This document shows, in pieces, positions 720-36,564 of a DNA stretch of 64,000 nucleotides. Location: positions 120,455 to 184,454 of the forward strand of contig NZ_KQ948851.1 of the NCBI RefSeq assembly GCF_001514215.1. Direction: 5' to 3'. Position numbers and translations under genes: made by a program. The notes below the pieces were generated by a model, which saw only the letters and a program-made list of their open reading frames with translations, ran no database searches and had not been told where the DNA came from. Within the stretch, counting starts at the first letter, position 1, and each line of letters starts with the position of its first letter. The stretch comes from Streptomyces bungoensis. Its GTDB lineage: Bacteria; Actinomycetota; Actinomycetes; Streptomycetales; Streptomycetaceae.

Positions 720-1505
720 TCAGGCCGGTTGCAGCATCCGGTCGCCGGTCAGCGAGGGATCGTGGGCCAGGATCGCGTTCTCGACCCGGCGCAGCGCGGG
801 GGAGGGCTGGATGCCGAGCTCCTCGTCCAGGTGGCGGCGCATCCGGTGGAACACGTCGAGGGCGTCGGCCTGTCTGCCCGAGCAGTACAGGGCGATCATC
901 AGCTGCTCGCAGAACCGTTCCCGCAGCGGGTGTCCGGCGTGCGCCTCGGTCAGCTCGGCGAGCACCGCGGCGTGCCGGCCGAGCCGCAGCTCGGCCTCGA
1001 AGCGCAGCTCCATGGCCCGCATCCGGTACTCCTCGAAGCGGGCCGCCGCCAGCTGGCACAGGGTCCCGCCGGTGAACCCGCCGAACACCGGCCCCCGCCA
1101 CATCCCGAGCGCGTCGCCGAGCAGCCGGGCGGTGCCGGCCGCGTCGGCCGGCGTGGCGGACTCGGCCAGCCGCACCGCCCGGATGAACTCGGCCGCGTCC
1201 AGCTCGCCCTCCGCGAGGGTGAGCCGGTAGCCGGAGGGGTGCATGGTCACCCGGGAGGCCGGCCGGTCCGGCTCCAGCTCCCGGAGCCTGCGGCGCAGCC
1301 GGCTGACATGGGCCTGGAGGGCGTTGGCCCGGTGGTCGGGCACGGCGTCCCCCCACATCTCCTCGGCCAGGCTCTCCCCGGACACCGGCTGGCCCTCGCT
1401 GACGAGCAGGGTCTGCACCAGCACGCGCTGCAGGTCGCCGAAGACGTCCGCCGGGCCGGCGGAGGTGTGTATCTGCAGTGCGCCGAGAACGGAGAACCTC
1501 AGCAT
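720..1505 (-). CDS. SARP-family pathway-specific activator
   Basis: A 261-residue protein of usual small-SARP length. Residues about 1-95 form an OmpR-type winged helix (ends with the beta-hairpin HPSGYRL), and about 100-250 form the bacterial transcriptional activation (BTAD) domain with TPR-like helices. SARPs bind direct heptamer repeats at 11-bp spacing next to the -10 element and recruit RNA polymerase. Ten promoters in this window carry such repeats, so this protein is their obvious activator. The start is placed at the ATG after GAGGGGG. It lies downstream of the tRNA-like gene on the same strand, so read-through from the SARP-type promoter at 1878-1920 could give positive autoregulation (inference). 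Confidence 0.93.
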   Translation of the reverse strand: MLRFSVLGALQIHTSAGPADVFGDLQRVLVQTLLVSEGQPVSGESLAEEMWGDAVPDHRANALQAHVSRLRRRLRELEPDRPASRVTMHPSGYRLTLAEGELDAAEFIRAVRLAESATPADAAGTARLLGDALGMWRGPVFGGFTGGTLCQLAAARFEEYRMRAMELRFEAELRLGRHAAVLAELTEAHAGHPLRERFCEQLMIALYCSGRQADALDVFHRMRRHLDEELGIQPSPALRRVENAILAHDPSLTGDRMLQPA

Positions 1506-1741: not shown

Positions 1742-1838
1742 TGGCGGAGAGGGCAGGGTTTGAACCTGCGTGGGCTGCGTGGGCCCGACCTGAAGGCATG
1801 CTCCAAGGTCCCCGATAGGCCGCTCCGGGCACCTCTCC
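1742..1838 (-). tRNA. tRNA-Ser-like gene with enlarged anticodon loop (putative non-decoding tRNA)
   Basis: Reading from 1838 down, a 97-nt class II tRNA is seen: acceptor stem GGAGAGG pairs perfectly with CCTCTCC, followed by discriminator G and an encoded CCA (1744-1742). The D-arm is CCCG/CGGG with a GG-containing loop. The T-arm is GCAGG-TTCAAAC-CCTGC (1769-1753). A long variable arm GGGC/GCCC (1786-1772) and G73 point to serine. The anticodon stem GACCT/AGGTC (1810-1806 with 1791-1787) is perfect, but its loop (1805-1792) has 14 nt instead of 7. A GGA triplet preceded by T sits at the 5' side, as in tRNA-Ser(GGA), followed by about 7 extra nt. Such an RNA should be chargeable by SerRS, which reads the variable arm and acceptor, but should not decode. 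A SARP-type promoter precedes it. Alternatives are a decayed tRNA or an attachment-site relic. Confidence 0.75.
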
Positions 1839-1877: not shown

Positions 1878-1920
1878 ACAGTGGCAGGGCCCGCTGACGG
1901 AATGCTGACACGCTTCTGAC
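1878..1920 (-). promoter_or_regulatory. SARP-type promoter pointing at the tRNA-Ser-like gene
   Basis: Three minus-strand GTCAG repeats (1920-1916, 1909-1905, 1898-1894) stand at perfect 11-bp steps. After the last heptamer come 8 bp and CACTGT (1883-1878) as -10. Predicted transcription starts near 1871, about 33 nt before the tRNA 5' end. The orientation is away from the VlmA-like gene and toward the tRNA-like gene. Confidence 0.7.
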
Positions 1921-11596: not shown

Positions 11597-12607
11597 TCAC
11601 TCAGTGGTCTGCAGCCCGGGCCAGACGAGGGTGGCCGCGCCCCAGGACAGGCCCCCGCCGAAGGCGGTGAGCAGCACCCGGTGGCCGGCCGTGAGCCGTC
11701 CCTCGGCGGTGGCCTCGGCGAGCAGCAGGGGGATGGAGGCGGCTCCGGTGTTGCCGACCCGCGCGATGTTGCTCAGCCGGCGCTCGGCGGGGATGCCGAG
11801 CCGGTCCGAGACGGCCTCCAGGATCCGGGCGTTGGCCTGGTGCGCGACGAACCGGTCGACCTCGTCGAGGCGCCATCCGGCCCGCTCGGCGGCCTCGGTG
11901 GAGGCGGCCGTCATGTGTTCCACCGCGTGCCGGTAGGTGTCCCGGCCCAGCATCCGGAAGTAGTGGTCCTCCGGGGCCACCGGCCGGCCGGCGGACCGGG
12001 TCCGGGAGCCGCCCGCCGGGACCTCGATCAGATGGCTCAGCTCGCCGTCGCTGCCGAGCACCAGCGGTCCCAGCGCCCCGGGTTCGTCGGGCGACCCGGC
12101 GCGCAGCACCACCGCGCCCGCGCCGTCCGCGAAGATCACCGCGGTGGTGCGGTCCTCCGGGTTGACGATCGTGGTGAAGGCGTCCGCCGCGATCAGCAGC
12201 ACCCGGTCCGCGATGCCGGCCGCGACGAGCCCGGCCGCCGAGGCCAGGCCGTACAGGAAGCCCGAGCAGACGGCCGCCACGTCGAAGGCGGGCACGCGGC
12301 CCAGGCCCAGCCGGGCCGCGACCTGCGGCGCGGTCGCCGGGCAGGGCTGGTCGGGGGTGGTGGTGGCCAGCACCACCGCCCCGACCTCCTGGTCGCCCGC
12401 GGACTTCAGCGCCCTGAGGCCCGCCTCCACCGCCAGGTCACTGGTGGAGGTGCCCGGGGAGACGACGTACCGTTCGGCGATCCCGGTCCGCGAGCGGATC
12501 CAGGCGTCGGAGGTGTCCAGCCGCGCCGACAGGTCCTCGTTCGTGACGACGTTGGGCGGGACGTACGACCCGATGCCGGTGACGACGGCGGCCCGCCCGG
12601 TGCTCAT
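11597..12607 (-). CDS. beta-ketoacyl-ACP synthase III (FabH-like)
   Basis: 336 residues. The catalytic Cys (AAVCSGFLYGL), His (VAHQAN) and Asn (VGNTGAASIP) of KAS III are all present. It would start chains by condensing acyl-CoA with malonyl-ACP, setting the starter unit of the alkyl chain. Its ATG overlaps the stop of the VlmB-like gene by 4 bp, linking chain initiation with the azoxy enzymes in one operon. Confidence 0.93.
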   Translation of the reverse strand: MSTGRAAVVTGIGSYVPPNVVTNEDLSARLDTSDAWIRSRTGIAERYVVSPGTSTSDLAVEAGLRALKSAGDQEVGAVVLATTTPDQPCPATAPQVAARLGLGRVPAFDVAAVCSGFLYGLASAAGLVAAGIADRVLLIAADAFTTIVNPEDRTTAVIFADGAGAVVLRAGSPDEPGALGPLVLGSDGELSHLIEVPAGGSRTRSAGRPVAPEDHYFRMLGRDTYRHAVEHMTAASTEAAERAGWRLDEVDRFVAHQANARILEAVSDRLGIPAERRLSNIARVGNTGAASIPLLLAEATAEGRLTAGHRVLLTAFGGGLSWGAATLVWPGLQTTE

Positions 12608-13584
12608 GCGCCGGCCTCCGAGGAGAGGACCTCGACCGGCAGGCCCATGTAGGCCATCCGGACCTCGGCCATCTCGTCGGTCCAGCGCTCGGCCATGTCG
12701 TAGCGCTGCTCGGCGGTGGTGTCGAGCAGCCGCACGCCCGGCCAGACCTCGTAGTCGCCGATCTTGTCGGCGTGCTCGAACATGCCCTGCTGGAACAGCT
12801 CCTCGCGGTGGATGACGAACTCCCGGTCCGGGATCTCGTCCCACAGCTTCACGCCCGAGCGCAGGATCTCCAGCAGCCGCGGCTTGTACTCCGGGTGCGC
12901 GATCACGTGGTCGCGCAGGATGGTGCTGGCCACGGTGAGGTGGCGGATCTCGTCGATGGCGGTGCCGCGGGAGATCTCGCCGGTGGCCGGGGACAGCGGG
13001 GTCCACTTGCGCTCGCTCAGCTCGGCGGCCGGGGCGAGCACCCCCTCGATGATGATGGCGAACACCGCGACCCCGCCGGGGAAGTCGGCCTGGTCGCGAA
13101 CGATGTCCAGGGTGAAGTCCACCACCGGGTCCAGGACCCGCTTGCGGTAGTCCCGGGCCATCGTGTCGATCTCCTTCAGGAGCGTGTCCGCCGGCACGCC
13201 CAGCTCCACCAGGTGCTGCCGGAAGACCCGGGCGTGCCGGGCCTCGTCGAGCAGCTGGGTGGCGTAGAACTCCATCTGCGGGATGCCCGGCGCGATCGAC
13301 ACGTAGTGGCCGAGCAGCCGGGTGGCCAGCTCCTCCGCCAGCGCCCGGAAGCCGAACTCCAGCACCAGCGCCTCGCGCAGCGGGCCGGGTGCCTTCAGGA
13401 AGTCCGGGGTGAGCGCGCTGTCGTGGTGGCCGGTGACCCCGCGGTCGCGCAGGGTGCCCTGGGCGACCGAGGTGATCCAGTAGGCGAGGTCGCACTCCTC
13501 GGGGCCGAGGGTGAGTTCCTTCGCGCCGTCCAGCAGACCGGGCGCCTTCTCCCAGTCCGCCTCGGGGGCAACGGGTGCGGTCAT
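12604..13584 (-). CDS. VlmB-like nonheme diiron oxygenase (azoxy formation)
   Basis: 326 residues with a ferritin-like four-helix pattern. Candidate metal ligands are E84 or E85, E114 and H117 (DEARH), E180, and E212 and H215 (DEIRH), the two ExxH motifs of diiron carboxylate enzymes. VlmB of valanimycin oxidises an alkylhydrazine-serine by four electrons to the azoxy group; the gene neighbours here (VlmO, VlmR, VlmH homologues) support the same role. The ferredoxin at 5997 may donate electrons. ATGA overlaps join it to both neighbours. An AurF-like amine N-oxygenase is the main alternative. Confidence 0.8.
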   Translation of the reverse strand: MTAPVAPEADWEKAPGLLDGAKELTLGPEECDLAYWITSVAQGTLRDRGVTGHHDSALTPDFLKAPGPLREALVLEFGFRALAEELATRLLGHYVSIAPGIPQMEFYATQLLDEARHARVFRQHLVELGVPADTLLKEIDTMARDYRKRVLDPVVDFTLDIVRDQADFPGGVAVFAIIIEGVLAPAAELSERKWTPLSPATGEISRGTAIDEIRHLTVASTILRDHVIAHPEYKPRLLEILRSGVKLWDEIPDREFVIHREELFQQGMFEHADKIGDYEVWPGVRLLDTTAEQRYDMAERWTDEMAEVRMAYMGLPVEVLSSEAGA

Positions 13585-14126
13585 GATGCGGCGGCCTCCT
13601 TCGCCGGACGCAGGGATCCGGCGTAGAGCCCGCCGGCGTAACTGAACAGCGGCAGGCCCTCGTCCGCCGTGGCGCGCACGACGTGGCCGAGCAGCAGTTC
13701 GCTGTCGCCCGCCCCGTGCGCCGAGTGGAAGCGGCACACGTAGTGGGCGAGCGCGCCCGCGATCAGCGGGGCGTGCGCGTACCGGTCCGCCGTCCAGGCC
13801 AGGCCCGTGAACGCCGCGTCGCCGTCGGGCCGGGCGCTGTCGGCGAACCGGCGGGCCACGTCGGCCTGGTCGCCGCCGAGCACGTTGATCGCGAACCGGC
13901 CCTCGGCGGCGGCCAGCCGCGCGAAGGACGAGCCCGCCCGCAGCACCACCCCGACCAGCAGGGGCTCGCGCGAGACGAGGGTGACCGTGCTCGCGGTCGT
14001 GCCGTGCATCCGCTCCTCGGGTCCGGTGGTCAGCACCGACACCGGGGACGCCAGGTGGTACAGCGCCCGGCGGCGCTCGGCGGGGTCCTGCCGGACCGGC
14101 CGTCGTACGTCGGTCGCGGTGGTCAT
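13581..14126 (-). CDS. flavin reductase (VlmR-like)
   Basis: 181 residues of the flavin reductase-like/HpaC fold (HLASPVSVLTTG near the start, FAINVLGGDQADVARRFA, then HYVCRFHSAHGAGDSELLLG). It reduces FMN or FAD with NAD(P)H and passes free reduced flavin to a partner. In valanimycin VlmR serves the amine hydroxylase VlmH; the VlmH-like gene lies three genes upstream in this operon. The ATG at 14126 overlaps the VlmO-like stop. Confidence 0.9.
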   Translation of the reverse strand: MTTATDVRRPVRQDPAERRRALYHLASPVSVLTTGPEERMHGTTASTVTLVSREPLLVGVVLRAGSSFARLAAAEGRFAINVLGGDQADVARRFADSARPDGDAAFTGLAWTADRYAHAPLIAGALAHYVCRFHSAHGAGDSELLLGHVVRATADEGLPLFSYAGGLYAGSLRPAKEAAAS

Positions 14127-14662
14127 CGCGCGGCCTCCGTCTCGCGCACCGGAGCGGCGGCCCGCGCCGGGACGTGCCCGACCGGCACCGGGTCCGCGGC
14201 GTGCCCCACCGGCTTCGGGTGCGGCAGGCCCAGGTCGTCCAGCAGCCGCAGGTAGCCCGGCTGGCGCACCGGCTCGAAGGGCAGCGCGAAGGACTTCATG
14301 AAGTTGCCGAACAGGCCGCGGTCGCCGAACAGGTGGAACGGCAGCACCAGCAGCGCCCACTCGGGCTTCACCAGCCAGCACCACAGCGCGGCGACCGCGC
14401 CCTGCGTGATGAGGCTGTGCATGACGTTGTAGAGGACGTAGTACGCCTTGTGGATCGGCCGGCCGCCGCTCTTCTTGAACGCGATGGCGCCGGGGATGTA
14501 GCCGATCAGGTCGATGTAGAGGAACAGTCCGAGCGCCGGCAGCCAGCGGATGTCGCCGAAGTGGTAGACGATCATGCCGGTGGTGACGGCGAGGCCCACC
14601 AGGTACTCGGCGCGGTGCAGCGAGTAGGTGCGCGGGGTCTCGAAGGGGTTCGCCTGGTCCAT
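14123..14662 (-). CDS. VlmO-like membrane protein (N-N bond formation candidate)
   Basis: 179 residues with three to four membrane segments (about 18-36, 40-62, 73-98, and a shorter one near 101-113) and a polar Pro/Ala-rich tail. Conserved-looking polar residues in or near the membrane include YHFGD, YIDLIGY, RPIHKAYY and HLFGDRG. VlmO is a small membrane protein shown to rearrange O-seryl-alkylhydroxylamine into the N-N-bonded hydrazine. Assignment rests on size, topology and on standing directly before VlmR- and VlmB-like genes, not on a recognised motif. Confidence 0.65.
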   Translation of the reverse strand: MDQANPFETPRTYSLHRAEYLVGLAVTTGMIVYHFGDIRWLPALGLFLYIDLIGYIPGAIAFKKSGGRPIHKAYYVLYNVMHSLITQGAVAALWCWLVKPEWALLVLPFHLFGDRGLFGNFMKSFALPFEPVRQPGYLRLLDDLGLPHPKPVGHAADPVPVGHVPARAAAPVRETEAAR

Positions 14663-15169: not shown

Positions 15170-16465
15170 TCAGTTACCGCCTTCCGGCATTGTGGCCGCG
15201 CCCTTGATCAGGTCGCGGGTGGCCAGGTCGAAGGAGTTGACGAGGAAGTCCACGTCGGTGTCGTCCAGCACGGCGGGCGGGGTGAACCGCACCACCGAGC
15301 TGCCGTTCATGGAGTGGTTGGCGACCACGCCGTGGTTGAACAGCTCGATCAGCAGCTCGCCGGCGAGGCCCGCCTCGACCAGCTCGACACCGATGAGCAG
15401 GCCCCGGCCGCGCACGTCCACCACCAGCTCGGGGATGTTGCGGTGGGCGACCTCCGCGATCCGCGGCAGCAGCCGGGCGCCGAGGTCCATGGCCCGGGTG
15501 ACCAGGCGCTCCTCCTTGACGGCCCGGATCGCGCCCTGCACCGCGGCCATCAGCACCGGCTGCCCGGAGAAGGTGGCGGTGTGGACGTAGGGGTCCTTGT
15601 CGAAGGGGCGGAACGCCTTGCGGGTGGCGACGGCCGCCGACACCGGCATCACCCCGCCGCCCAGCGCCTTGCCGGTGAGCAGGACGTCCGGGACGACGCC
15701 CTCGATGTCGGCGCCCCACCACTCGCCGAGCCGCCCGAAGCCGGACTGCACCTCGTCGAGGATGAGGAAGCCGTCGTACTCGCGGACCAGTTCCTCGACG
15801 CGCTTGAGGTAGCCCTTCGGCGGGATGACGACCCCGCCCTCGCCCTGGACCGGCTCCAGGATCACGCACACCTCACCCGGGTGGGCGCGCAGTTCGGCCT
15901 CGAGGGCGTCGGCGTCGCCGAACGGCAGGTGCTGGAAGTCGGGCACGAGCGGGCGGAACGGCGCCTGGTAGACGTCCTTCGCGGTCGCCGACAGGGCGCC
16001 CAGGGTCTTGCCGTGGTAGCCGCCGCGCATCGAGATGGTGCGCTTGAACCCGTTCGCGCGGGCCAGTTTCAGGCCGGTCTCCACCGCCTCGGCGCCCGAC
16101 AGCGCGAAGTGCACGCGGTCCAGGCCGGCCGGCAGCACGGACACCAGGGCCTCGGCGGCGCGGGCCACCGTCGGCTCCAGCAGGATGCGGGTCGCGGTGG
16201 GGTGGGTGCGCAGCTGGCGCTCCACCTCCTCCATGACGATCGGATGGCGGGCGCCCATGATGAACACGCCGTAGCCGCCCGCGTTCAGGAAGCGCTCACC
16301 GTCGCTGGTGGTGAGCCAGGCGCCCTCGGACGCCGTCTCCATGTGGCTGCCGAACAGCTCGGCGAGCGTGGCCCGGCCCTTGCTCAGGTGGGCCCGGTAC
16401 AGATTGAGGATCTCCGCCTCCGTGTCGGCGGCCGGGGCCGCCGGAGACTCCTGCAGTACGGTCAC
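15170..16465 (-). CDS. class III (omega-type) PLP aminotransferase
   Basis: 431 residues, fold-type I. The PLP lysine lies in LLTGKALGGG and the upstream Asp in FLILDEVQSGFGRLG. This family aminates aldehydes, ketones and terminal amino acids. Next to an ALDH-family gene and a VlmH-like N-hydroxylase it most likely converts a fatty aldehyde to the alkylamine that replaces valine-derived isobutylamine of valanimycin. Ornithine/acetylornithine-type activity is the alternative. Confidence 0.9.
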   Translation of the reverse strand: MTVLQESPAAPAADTEAEILNLYRAHLSKGRATLAELFGSHMETASEGAWLTTSDGERFLNAGGYGVFIMGARHPIVMEEVERQLRTHPTATRILLEPTVARAAEALVSVLPAGLDRVHFALSGAEAVETGLKLARANGFKRTISMRGGYHGKTLGALSATAKDVYQAPFRPLVPDFQHLPFGDADALEAELRAHPGEVCVILEPVQGEGGVVIPPKGYLKRVEELVREYDGFLILDEVQSGFGRLGEWWGADIEGVVPDVLLTGKALGGGVMPVSAAVATRKAFRPFDKDPYVHTATFSGQPVLMAAVQGAIRAVKEERLVTRAMDLGARLLPRIAEVAHRNIPELVVDVRGRGLLIGVELVEAGLAGELLIELFNHGVVANHSMNGSSVVRFTPPAVLDDTDVDFLVNSFDLATRDLIKGAATMPEGGN

Positions 16466-16486: not shown

Positions 16487-17629
16487 TCAGGCCAGGACCA
16501 GCGGGCCGCCCGCGAAGTACGCGAGCATCGGCTCCGCCGCGGCGAGACGGGACGGCGGGTGGAAGGCGAGGGCCCGGGTGGCGGCGGCCGCCTGGGCGGT
16601 GTCGGAGCCGTTGATGAACTCCAGGCCGCCGAGCAGCTCCAGGGCGCGGGCGACGATGTCCGGCATCGCGTTCTGCACGGCGTACCGGGCGACCAGCACG
16701 CGCGCCACCGACTCCTCGTCGCCGGGCTCCGGGCCGGTGCCGCGGGCCACGCCCTCCAGCAGGGCGAGGGCGGCCTCCATGTCGACGGCGAGCGCGGCCC
16801 GCTCCGCGGCGCCGCCCCGCTCGCGCTCCAGCACCTGCTCCACCAGCGCGGCGGCGGCGCCCGCGTACCCGGCGGAGATCAGCATCTCGAACCAGACGAA
16901 CCCGGCGGACTGCAGGTCGTCGAGGCGGGTGGGATCGTCGGCGCCGGCCCGGACCACCATCTCGGCCGGGACGAACACGTCCTCCAGCCGCACCTCCTCG
17001 CTCTCCGCGCCCGCCAGCAGCTGGTTGCCCCAGAAGGTGTGCACGGACAGGCCGGGCGCGCCGGCCGGCACCAGCGCGAGGGCCAGCTCCGGCTCGCCGC
17101 CGTCCTCGCCGTGGATCGCGATGGACGCGGTGAGCAGGCTCATCGAACGGGACAGGCTGCACGGCTTCTTCGACCCGGACAGCAGGAACCCGCCCTCCAC
17201 CGGGCGCGCGGTCACGGCCGGCTTGAGGATGTTCTGCGCGGTGCGGCCCTCGGCCCAGCCGGAGGCCATCATCATCTGGTCCGGCACGATCCGGTGCAGC
17301 AGTTCGGTCTGGGCGCCGGTGAGCCGGCCCGCCTTGACGGCGAGGGAGTACAGCATGGCGGCGGTGAAGTGGTGCATGGACACCGCGGCGACCAGCGACG
17401 GGGACAGGGCGCCGAGCGCCAGCTGGACGCGCAGGGCCTCCAGCGGGGCCGCGCCGTGGCCGCCGTAGGCCTCGGGTATGAGCAGGCCGACCCCGCCGTG
17501 GATGCGGAACAGGTCGATCACCGGGCTGCCGGGCCGCTCCCGCTCGGCGTACGGGAGCTGGTCCAGCTCCTTGAGCAGTCCGGGGTGGAACCGCTCGCAG
17601 ACGGTGCGGGCAGCATCGAGGGAACGCAA
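16487..17629 (-). CDS. VlmH-like flavin-dependent amine N-hydroxylase (acyl-CoA dehydrogenase fold)
   Basis: 380 residues with the three-part acyl-CoA dehydrogenase fold: N-terminal helices to about 115, beta domain (about 120-225, with SGSKKPCSLS) and C-terminal helical bundle. Such proteins include the FADH2-dependent isobutylamine N-hydroxylase VlmH. The nearby flavin reductase and aminotransferase favour alkylamine N-hydroxylation over fatty acid beta-oxidation. It would give the alkylhydroxylamine that receives serine from the VlmA-like enzyme. A true acyl-CoA dehydrogenase cannot be excluded from sequence alone. Confidence 0.78.
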   Translation of the reverse strand: MRSLDAARTVCERFHPGLLKELDQLPYAERERPGSPVIDLFRIHGGVGLLIPEAYGGHGAAPLEALRVQLALGALSPSLVAAVSMHHFTAAMLYSLAVKAGRLTGAQTELLHRIVPDQMMMASGWAEGRTAQNILKPAVTARPVEGGFLLSGSKKPCSLSRSMSLLTASIAIHGEDGGEPELALALVPAGAPGLSVHTFWGNQLLAGAESEEVRLEDVFVPAEMVVRAGADDPTRLDDLQSAGFVWFEMLISAGYAGAAAALVEQVLERERGGAAERAALAVDMEAALALLEGVARGTGPEPGDEESVARVLVARYAVQNAMPDIVARALELLGGLEFINGSDTAQAAAATRALAFHPPSRLAAAEPMLAYFAGGPLVLA

Positions 17630-17656: not shown

Positions 17657-19294
17657 TCAGGCGCCGAAGACCGCGTCGTACGGGCTGACGTCGCGGGCGA
17701 TGCTGACTCCCTGGACGTGGGAGGTCTTGAGCATCGGGTAGTTGGCCTCGCCGAACGCGCCGCCGGTGCGGCCGGTGCCGCCGTGGCTCGGCAGGTAGGG
17801 CAGGAAGCCGATGTGGGAGTCGTTGACCTTCAGCAGACCGCCGTTGACGGTGCGCCGCACGAAGGTCTCGATCACGTGGTCCGAGCGCGACCACAGGGAG
17901 TTGCGCAGCCCGTAGTCGTTGCTGTTCACGAACTGCAGGAACGATTCGAGCAGCGCGTCGTCGCTGTCGCGTTCGGCGACCACGATCGGGACCAGCGGGA
18001 AGAAGGTCTCCTCGCGGACCACGTCGTAGGTCCGCGCCCGGTCCAGGCCGTCCACGCGCACCACCGTCGGCTGCAGGAACACGCCCGTCTCCGACACCGT
18101 GCCGTCGACCTCGGTGCGGTTGCCGCCGGTGACCAGCTCGGCGCCGTTGTCCAGGGCCTGGCGCAGCAGCCGGAAGAAGCGCTCGCTGCGCCGCACCGGC
18201 GACAGCAGGACGTCCTCCTCCTCGGGCAGGCCCGGCTTGATGCCCTTGACCTGCTTCTTCACCTCGTCGATCAGCGCCTCGGCGATGTCCGGGTGGACCA
18301 GCACGTAGTTGGGCACCATGCAGATCTGACCGGAGCCGTAGAACGCCTCGGTGATGGCCTCGGCCGCCCACGTCACGTCGGCGTCCTTCCAGACCACGAT
18401 GCCGTCGTTGCCGGCGAGCTCCAGGATCGGCTTCTTGCCGTGCGACACGCACTGCTGCTCGAAGCGCAGGCCCTCCTGGCTGCCGCCGATGTAGAAGATG
18501 TCGTCGATCAGCGGATCGGCGATCCAGCGGTCCATGGTCTGCTTCGGGTTGGAGCACACCGCGTTGAGCACACCGGCCGGCGCGTCGAGCTCCTCCAGCA
18601 GCGGCGCCACGATGTCGCGCAGCAGCCACATCGTGGACAGCGCGATGGAGCGCGGGGCCCGCACGACGACCGCGTTGCCGGCCATCAGCGCCAGCACGCA
18701 CAGCGCGGCGCTCGGCAGCGGCGCGTTCTGCGGCGGGTTGAAGGCGACCACACCGTCCGGCTGGCGGTGCAGGATCAGCTTGCGGCCGTTGTACTCCTTC
18801 TCCACCCTCATCTGCTTCAGGTACCAACGCAGGGAGCCCGGGGCGTAGATCTGCAGCAGGCAGCTCAGCTCCCACCGGGCGAGCTTCACGGGGTGCGACT
18901 CGGCGACCAGCATGCGCAGGAACTCGTCCTGGTGCTTGATCAGTTCCTCGCGGAAGCGGGTGCCCAGCTGCATCCGCCGCTCCAGCGGTACGGCCGCCCA
19001 GTCGGGGGCCGCCGCGGCGGCCGCCTGGGTGGCCAGGTCGATGGCGGAGTCGTCCGCGATCGCGCAGCGCCCGACGACATAGGGGTGCTTGGCCGCCTCC
19101 GACTCCGGGTCCTGTTCCAGGGAGCGCTTCAGGCTGACGCTCGTGAAAACGTCTTCCAGCAGGGAACGCCCGCTGACGGTGTAGACCCACCCGTCCCCGG
19201 CCACGTCCTTGCCCGCGATGTAGAGGTCGTAACTCTTCAATCCGGAAGGTGCCTCAGCACTCTCCTCCTGCTCCTGCGCGGCTTCGCGAAGCAT
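17657..19294 (-). CDS. aldehyde dehydrogenase-superfamily enzyme (candidate acyl reductase)
   Basis: 545 residues. The catalytic Cys is in GSGQICMVPN and the usual general-base Glu in LELAGNDG. The N-terminus is extended by about 100 residues compared with ordinary ALDHs. First gene of the ten-gene minus operon. Since an aminotransferase follows, it may run as an acyl-thioester or acid reductase giving a fatty aldehyde; oxidation of an aldehyde is the default family chemistry. The ATG at 19294 follows AAAGG and is the first start after the predicted transcription start near 19333. Confidence 0.85.
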   Translation of the reverse strand: MLREAAQEQEESAEAPSGLKSYDLYIAGKDVAGDGWVYTVSGRSLLEDVFTSVSLKRSLEQDPESEAAKHPYVVGRCAIADDSAIDLATQAAAAAAPDWAAVPLERRMQLGTRFREELIKHQDEFLRMLVAESHPVKLARWELSCLLQIYAPGSLRWYLKQMRVEKEYNGRKLILHRQPDGVVAFNPPQNAPLPSAALCVLALMAGNAVVVRAPRSIALSTMWLLRDIVAPLLEELDAPAGVLNAVCSNPKQTMDRWIADPLIDDIFYIGGSQEGLRFEQQCVSHGKKPILELAGNDGIVVWKDADVTWAAEAITEAFYGSGQICMVPNYVLVHPDIAEALIDEVKKQVKGIKPGLPEEEDVLLSPVRRSERFFRLLRQALDNGAELVTGGNRTEVDGTVSETGVFLQPTVVRVDGLDRARTYDVVREETFFPLVPIVVAERDSDDALLESFLQFVNSNDYGLRNSLWSRSDHVIETFVRRTVNGGLLKVNDSHIGFLPYLPSHGGTGRTGGAFGEANYPMLKTSHVQGVSIARDVSPYDAVFGA

Positions 19295-19339: not shown

Positions 19340-19382
19340 AGCCTGACAGCGGAATCTGACCCGGCGCTGACACCCCGCTGAC
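19340..19382 (-). promoter_or_regulatory. SARP-type promoter for the ten-gene azoxy operon
   Basis: Minus-strand GTCAG repeats at 19382-19378, 19371-19367 and 19360-19356 stand at 11-bp steps, followed by 8 bp and CAGGCT (19345-19340) as -10. A fourth GTCAG (19347-19343) overlaps the -10 region. It drives ALDH through FabF. Confidence 0.75.
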
Positions 19383-32250: not shown

Positions 32251-32293
32251 GTCAGTCCGAGGTCAGCCCCGGGTCAGTTCTCCTTGGCAAAGT
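32251..32293 (+). promoter_or_regulatory. SARP-type promoter upstream of a small ORF
   Basis: Three GTCAG heptamers at 32251, 32262 and 32273 (11-bp steps), 8 bp, then CAAAGT (32288-32293). It is one of the most regular sites in the window, and the only thing between it and the next SARP-type promoter is a 58-codon ORF. Confidence 0.65.
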
Positions 32294-32586: not shown

Positions 32587-32629
32587 GTCAGCGCTGTGTC
32601 AGCGCGGTGTCAGGGCCTTGCGCGAAGGT
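32587..32629 (+). promoter_or_regulatory. SARP-type promoter for the second P450 operon
   Basis: GTCAGC, GTCAGC and GTCAGG heptamers at 32587, 32598 and 32609 (11-bp steps), 8 bp, then GAAGGT (32624-32629). It would drive P450, MFS and the hydrolase-like gene, with a leader of about 130 nt. Confidence 0.7.
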
Positions 32630-36521: not shown

Positions 36522-36564
36522 GTCAGCGGCATGTCAGACCCGTGTCAGCACCCCCCGGCACAGT
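36522..36564 (+). promoter_or_regulatory. SARP-type promoter for the kinase-SnoaL unit
   Basis: GTCAG heptamers at 36522, 36533 and 36544 (11-bp steps), 8 bp, then CACAGT (36559-36564). The leader to the kinase ATG at 36638 would be about 67 nt. Confidence 0.7.

Follow-up and report, generated by a model that had tools for sequence, protein, structure and literature searches.

Likely private serine carriers for azoxy-bond synthesis: tRNA-Ser-shaped RNAs without an anticodon, predicted to be switched by a SARP-type regulator

In valanimycin biosynthesis, a cluster-encoded seryl-tRNA synthetase (SerRS) and a transferase (VlmL and VlmA) act together to pass serine from seryl-tRNA to a hydroxylamine (PMC4052509, PMC9379638, PMC12945691), and the way in which Ser-tRNA is diverted from translation into this pathway is "still unknown" according to PMC4052509. 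The same question is raised by the locus described here, a stretch of 64,000 nucleotides of Streptomyces bungoensis DNA (hereafter the window), in which a gene for a tRNA-Ser-like RNA (minus strand, 1838 to 1745, 94 nt by sequence and alignment, then an encoded CCA at 1744 to 1742) lies beside a gene for a VlmA-like transferase. Is this RNA a serine tRNA that the pathway keeps for itself?

The window holds VlmA-, VlmH-, VlmB- and VlmR-like genes together, as in a valanimycin-type azoxy cluster; VlmH and VlmR were assigned by family, and VlmB by its identity to an annotated VlmB-like protein. The VlmA-like transferase (PF09924; 2013..3044, plus strand) is the predicted user of the charged RNA. 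The minus strand encodes a SerRS that passes the NCBIfam serS cut-off (TIGR00414; 7160..8437) and is the predicted charger of the RNA, the VlmB-like protein (12604..13584; no Pfam match, 60% identical to the VlmB-like protein of pSA3239), a VlmR-like flavin reductase (13581..14126), a VlmO-like protein with no Pfam or NCBIfam match that is labelled by its cluster position (14123..14662), a class III aminotransferase (15170..16465), an acyl-CoA-dehydrogenase-like protein, taken as the VlmH-like N-hydroxylase by position and family (16487..17629), and an aldehyde dehydrogenase family protein that is the first of a minus-strand operon (17657..19240).

The original prediction described a complete class II tRNA cloverleaf with a 7-bp acceptor, a long variable arm, G73 and CCA, and all of these were confirmed on the minus strand at 1742-1838. 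The acceptor pairs GGAGAGG with CCTCTCC and is followed by the discriminator G73; U8, a D-stem of 4 bp and the GG of the D-loop are present, and the T-arm (GCAGG-TTCAAAC-CCTGC) has a 5-bp stem and a standard T-loop. Fold and alignment place the long class II variable arm at 1772..1786, and the segment comprising the T-arm, the 3' acceptor strand and G73 (1745..1769) is invariant or nearly so in the 68 copies aligned below. The position of the anticodon arm is taken by a hairpin (1787..1810 by fold and alignment) in which no family-wide anticodon is conserved. It consists of a 5-bp stem (GACCT/AGGTC) and a 14-nt loop, which pairs further in the predicted fold (GGAG-CAUGC-CUUC). Stem and loop are thus present as predicted earlier; the family trait, however, is a variable hairpin that replaces the anticodon arm rather than a 14-nt loop.

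Neither ARAGORN nor Rfam at its gathering threshold reported this RNA over the whole window. In covariance scoring, which had been proposed as a check, the Rfam tRNA model was silent in the window, and the family model R1, which was built with this copy, scored 1745-1838 at 87.4 bits. The predicted fold is only mildly more stable than expected by chance (z −1.35; 26 of 200 shuffles were equally stable), and it is the comparative evidence (12 genomic places, 68 aligned copies and compensatory pairing) that marks the RNA as more than a chance fold.

The window sequence matches 12 places in the 8.41-Mb genome of its own strain, namely itself and 11 others at 78-84% identity, and the Rfam tRNA model, which has 68 matches in that genome, misses all 12. 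Inspection of the predicted genes around the 11 dispersed copies revealed no common theme. The copy that had been regarded as the RNA of the cluster is one of 12 in the genome, and its SARP-type promoter is common to the dispersed copies. Across genomes, the copies stand in tandem arrays or are scattered. For example, locus L092 (6011-6577) has five in tandem with a single upstream promoter-type site, and a single array holds all three matches of S. coeruleorubidus ATCC 13740 and likewise another both matches of Streptomyces sp. WAC 01529. Another copy, dispersed in the S. bungoensis genome (C14:6067-6175), overlaps an opposite-strand open frame (C14:5300-6313, equal to L105 5300-6313) that by eye resembles a transposase or integrase.

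From 84 places found, 68 distinct complete RNA sequences were aligned with MAFFT, and the cloverleaf was drawn by hand. Forty-four alignment columns are invariant. They cover the acceptor, the T-arm, G73 and parts of the D-arm, and the stretch between positions 29 and 49 contains none of them. All seven acceptor pairs and all five T-stem pairs are invariant, and the serine-type G73, G1-C72 and G2-C71 are kept in 68/68 copies. Sequence and length of the replaced anticodon arm vary, while compensatory changes preserve its pairing. In helix 3, the counterpart of the anticodon stem, both sides have changed in seven of eight pairs, and in the variable arm in six of seven. None of 500 shuffles reached any of five pairing measures, and shifting the partners by 1-3 columns made all five worse; since relatedness was not preserved in the shuffles, and folds of the same sequences had served to draw the structure, most weight falls on the double changes. 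Helix 3 is 80% paired, its inner pairs often being open in some copies. The replaced arm spans 17-35 nt, the variable arm 11-20 nt, and the replaced arm is capped by GAAA or UUUU loops in some copies. One copy (L043, 9683-9788) carries a long extra hairpin in this arm, which totals 35 nt.

Set against five tRNA-Ser genes, the RNA shows 60-64% identity, and against a tRNA-Tyr 61.7%, so that overall identity does not clearly single out tRNA-Ser as its nearest relative. G73, by contrast, distinguishes it from the Leu and Tyr genes compared, because those have A73, whereas all five tRNA-Ser genes have G73. As read from the alignment, no anticodon is kept, and the parts that SerRS and the tRNA elbow need are frozen. 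The non-decoding tRNA-Ser shape proposed earlier thus holds at the level of the alignment, with serine-type features invariant and an anticodon absent across 68 copies. We know of no other tRNA family with a dismantled coding part and a frozen charging part. Exclusion from EF-Tu by way of the T-stem pairs is not claimed; two of those five tRNA-Ser genes also have C50-G64.

If the RNA were a dedicated donor, it should be found with its transferase. A scan of genome contigs for VlmA-like proteins yielded 63 loci, and in 49 of them the fetched DNA contains the RNA at less than 10 kb from the VlmA-like gene. In 42 of these 49 it is divergent from vlmA and less than 600 bp upstream, and 14 of the 49 have 2-5 copies by a strict pattern. 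Among the 14 loci without a nearby RNA, 13 have copies elsewhere in the genome by whole-genome search, and 12 of the 14 genomes gave 1-15 matches elsewhere, among the matches listed; per-genome copy numbers are throughout numbers of matches among those listed, part of which were inspected. In L076 the RNA is a single copy interrupted by the contig start, and in L057, where the vlmA locus is on a 5.6-kb contig of a draft, no RNA was found anywhere in the genome. Four loci without nearby RNA encode VlmA proteins 86-92% identical to that of the window, and their genomes have distant matches, among those listed (eight for L039, nine for L040, nine for L047 and 15 for L068). On S. lavendulae pSA3239, some 8 kb separate vlmA from the RNA, which sits in a gap. 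Since distant copies are retained where vlmA has none beside it, the RNA would act in trans. Going by record titles, it was found in Streptomyces, Kitasatospora, Actinacidiphila, Streptantibioticus, Actinokineospora, Salinispora, Sphaerisporangium and Rhodococcus.

Co-occurrence was also evident in genome samples. In a same-genus sample, model R1 passed E ≤ 1e-6 in 38 of 295 genomes; three of these (G055, G113 and G192; 54-58 bits) were dropped as ordinary tRNA-Ser(UGA), leaving 35. VlmA was present at E ≤ 1e-40 in 61 of the 295, and these include 34 of the 35 RNA genomes (Fisher p 1e-26). The 35th, G176, encodes a 39%-identical VlmA 2.4 kb from the RNA, aligned in two pieces within one open frame, so that a VlmA-like protein accompanies the RNA in 35/35. 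Secondary R1 matches reached 62.3 bits in G290 and 60.5 bits in G150 and were assigned to neither type. In a phylum-wide sample, VlmA was found in 3 of 396 genomes, two of which have RNA matches above 70 bits, and the third carries the RNA-free type of VlmA. R1 passed E ≤ 1e-6 in 220 of these 396 genomes and exceeded 70 bits only in G000 and G678; ARAGORN identified the 18 lower-scoring loci that were fetched (56-61 bits) as ordinary tRNA-Ser.

A VlmA tree was built by a quick method from 123 loci with 112 different sequences, some genomes being entered twice. All RNA-positive loci fall in one clade of 97 (SH-aLRT 99), in which the RNA is present in 94/97 with L076 counted as positive, and in the sister group it is present in none of 26 loci. 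The labels used for the tree statistics and for the SerRS counts given below comprise 93 RNA-positive loci; with L076 thus labelled RNA-free, the RNA-free label changes four times on the tree, vs. a mean of 27 in shuffles. The original prediction had named a lack of conservation beside VlmA homologues as a refutation, and the opposite was found: across eight genera, the RNA is inherited together with a single VlmA clade. Because VlmA homologues outside this clade lack the RNA, the VlmA reaction as such needs no such RNA. In the three exceptions within the clade (L057, L216 and L219), a locus search with filters off gave nothing convincing, and genome searches returned only a tRNA-Tyr in two and nothing in the third. 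Two of them, L216 and L219 (G081 and G094), could reveal what replaces the RNA there.

The RNA also appears to share its control with the cluster. The window encodes a SARP-family activator with BTAD and Trans_reg_C domains as the probable regulator (720..1505, minus strand), and a putative SARP-type site of three perfect GTCAG repeats at 11-bp spacing (1894..1920, minus) lies 55 nt upstream of the RNA. Further perfect triple GTCAG sites lie at 19356..19382 (minus), 116 nt before the predicted start of the minus-strand operon; at 32251..32277 (plus); at 32587..32613 (plus), 156 nt before a predicted gene start; and at 36522..36548 (plus), 90 nt before another. A similar arrangement is described for valanimycin, where VlmI is a SARP and three heptameric repeats occur upstream of vlmJ and vlmA-vlmH (PMC10972967).

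About 100 nt of upstream sequence are common to all 12 copies of the S. bungoensis genome, and with up to one mismatch GTCAG occurs at 11-bp spacing three times in nine of them and twice in three. For the whole family, 130 nt upstream of 116 distinct copies were searched for runs of at least three GTCAG, one mismatch being allowed in each, at 11-bp spacing. Such runs precede 83 of the 116 copies. The downstream control gave 2 of 116, and no run occurred in shuffled upstream sequence (20 shuffles per stretch). Twenty-five of the 33 copies without a run are second or later members of arrays, so that a run stands before 83 of the 91 copies that are first or solitary; seven of the other eight have two GTCAG repeats. 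In the S. bungoensis genome there are 13 perfect triples, five in the window, seven before dispersed copies and one elsewhere, and with up to two mismatches the whole genome has 51 sites vs. 12 for the reversed pattern. Judged by these repeats, a promoter of the SARP-site type, with three direct repeats at 11-bp spacing, is common to the RNA copies and the cluster, and the SARP of the window would be the protein that binds them. The sole perfect triple away from the window and the RNA copies belongs to a GTCAG-like run at 11-bp spacing (C17:183427-183486, L210) that lies just behind and at the end of a minus-strand gene.

Taken together, it is very likely that this gene encodes a tRNA-Ser-shaped RNA that is reserved for donating serine to the VlmA-like transferase, outside translation. 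We also think it likely that tRNAs have here been turned into metabolic carriers, a private set of SARP-switched serine tRNAs without anticodons loading serine for azoxy-bond synthesis. In such a scheme, the cluster SARP would activate the pathway and all RNA copies at the same time, trimming and CCA addition would fall to the usual tRNA enzymes, and the cluster SerRS, or the housekeeping SerRS where the cluster has none, would charge the RNA via the acceptor, G73 and the variable arm. VlmA uses seryl-tRNA, and serine identity does not depend on the anticodon (PMC4052509, PMC9976931). Because VlmA is known to move serine from seryl-tRNA to a hydroxylamine, we infer that the RNA is serylated and that VlmA takes its serine and places it on a hydroxylamine. 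As the anticodon is absent, the charged RNA would not be spent by the ribosome and hence would be left for VlmA, so that induction of the pathway would raise a serine pool that translation cannot drain. As found by sequence search, the genes of the predicted carrier lie both inside the cluster and at scattered chromosomal sites (12 copies here, elsewhere up to 15 matches, among those listed), and many copies would raise the carrier supply.

The closest precedent is the specialised tRNA-Gly of Staphylococcus aureus used in cell-wall synthesis (PMC4810233, PMC4052509), a tRNA that is favoured by a non-ribosomal aminoacyl transferase and escapes translation, as is predicted for the RNA described here; VlmA and the Fem enzymes have a common GNAT fold (PMC12945691). 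However, as described, the S. aureus tRNA-Gly is an isoacceptor that translation uses inefficiently, whereas in the window RNA the anticodon arm is replaced, and the RNA belongs to the putative regulon of a secondary metabolite, with a predicted use in azoxy biosynthesis. With canonical class II tRNA-Ser the RNA has in common the cloverleaf, the long variable arm, G73, G1-C72, G2-C71 and the elbow nucleotides, but it differs in having no anticodon, in its 60-64% identity and in going unreported by ARAGORN and Rfam in the window. tRNA-Sec and the allo-tRNAs are also non-standard and related to tRNA-Ser; by their description they have an acceptor branch of 13 bp, or of 12 bp as 9/3, and a decoding role (PMC7609411), whereas the present family keeps 7 + 5 pairs and no anticodon. 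The pseudo-tRNA "tRNAOther" of Bacillus cereus is similarly tRNA-like and said to be non-translational, but it lies beside a pathogenicity island, and its account describes no such pathway enzyme, array or regulon (PMC3399842). Like the valanimycin cluster, the window has a cluster SerRS, a VlmA-like gene, a SARP and three-repeat sites; the valanimycin route, as described, mentions no special tRNA (PMC4052509, PMC9379638, PMC12945691).

No description of such an RNA was found in the open-licence PMC literature, in agreement with the earlier statement that it was undescribed in azoxy clusters. We rate the RNA family as new, with its carrier function predicted. If the function is as proposed, secondary metabolism and translation would be separated through their tRNA pools, and the question of Ser-tRNA diversion would have a concrete, testable answer in a separate tRNA incapable of decoding. 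It would also mean that a biosynthetic gene cluster has an RNA component, missed in this window by ARAGORN and Rfam, and that a pathway regulator controls RNA genes scattered over the genome. Possible uses are as an orthogonal serine carrier for engineering and as a genomic marker for one branch of azoxy clusters.

Alternative to serine donation, the RNA might be a regulatory tRNA-like molecule, a sensor or sponge that binds SerRS, VlmA or EF-Tu and tunes the pathway. Action in trans and SARP-type control would fit this role equally well. However, the invariant acceptor, T-arm and G73, the arrays and the up to 15 matches per genome (among those listed) point to a mass-produced charged adaptor, and the partner VlmA is known to use seryl-tRNA (PMC4052509). 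We therefore consider a regulatory role improbable, and return to the RNA as a donor of serine and to the enzyme that would charge it.

A SerRS was counted where at least 280 residues aligned in the fetched DNA of the 123 loci. It was found in 50, all RNA-positive, and in the fetched DNA it was absent from 43 of the 93 loci labelled RNA-positive and from all 30 labelled RNA-negative. The link is thus not strict: SerRS implies the RNA (50/50), but the reverse fails. The loci span at most about 10 kb per side and many are cut at contig ends, so some SerRS genes were missed. Within these loci the RNA is a more constant partner of VlmA than SerRS is, and the dedicated SerRS seems to have been added later; because the 43 loci show no SerRS, the housekeeping enzyme probably serves there. 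The proposal that the cluster SerRS alone charges the RNA was therefore too narrow. The same 43 loci would also suit a carrier that bears, or is converted to, a cargo other than serine, or that serves another cluster enzyme. VlmA homologues can use other amino acids, and alanyl-tRNA was proposed for the azodyrecin cluster, in which the authors report no aminoacyl-tRNA synthetase gene (PMC9379638). Such a carrier is nevertheless distinctly improbable, given G73, G1-C72, G2-C71 and a long variable arm in 68/68 copies, and a SerRS that occurs only with the RNA (50/50) and in none of the 30 RNA-free VlmA loci.

Could the copies be selfish repeats of tRNA origin that spread through genomes and contribute nothing to the pathway? 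The 11 dispersed copies in unrelated neighbourhoods of the S. bungoensis genome would agree with this, and insertion sites mostly differ, since only 8 of 33 dispersed copies compared have at least one flank in common with a dispersed copy of another locus (L118 and L134 being the single pair with both flanks in common). A selfish element is very hard to reconcile, however, with the confinement of the RNA to VlmA genomes (35/35, after exclusion of the three ordinary tRNA-Ser), with arrays beside vlmA in many species, with arms whose pairing is kept by double changes and with a promoter site that is the same as that of the cluster.

An ordinary decoding tRNA-Ser with an odd loop or an intron is scarcely credible. 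When forced with artificial flanks and CCA, ARAGORN called 49 of the 68 copies, and 63 of 68 with introns allowed, as the cloverleaf and serine features might lead one to expect; but the anticodons it assigned are inconsistent between copies, the replaced arm varies from 17 to 35 nt with several tetraloop ends, and the family has no 7-nt anticodon loop with a serine anticodon. Equally hard to credit is an integration-site remnant, a pseudogene or a cis-acting element of vlmA, which the intergenic position beside vlmA and the end at a discriminator plus CCA might suggest, but against which stand the compensatory changes, the RNA's own promoter, the arrays and the copies far from vlmA, a cis element being excluded because genomes with none nearby keep the RNA elsewhere.

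A minor observation concerns SerRS. A second type of extra SerRS, about 57-62% identical to that of the window, is present in more than 20 same-genus genomes (G279, G220, G241, G297 and others), mostly without VlmA or the RNA, and may belong to another seryl-using or SerRS-resistance cluster.
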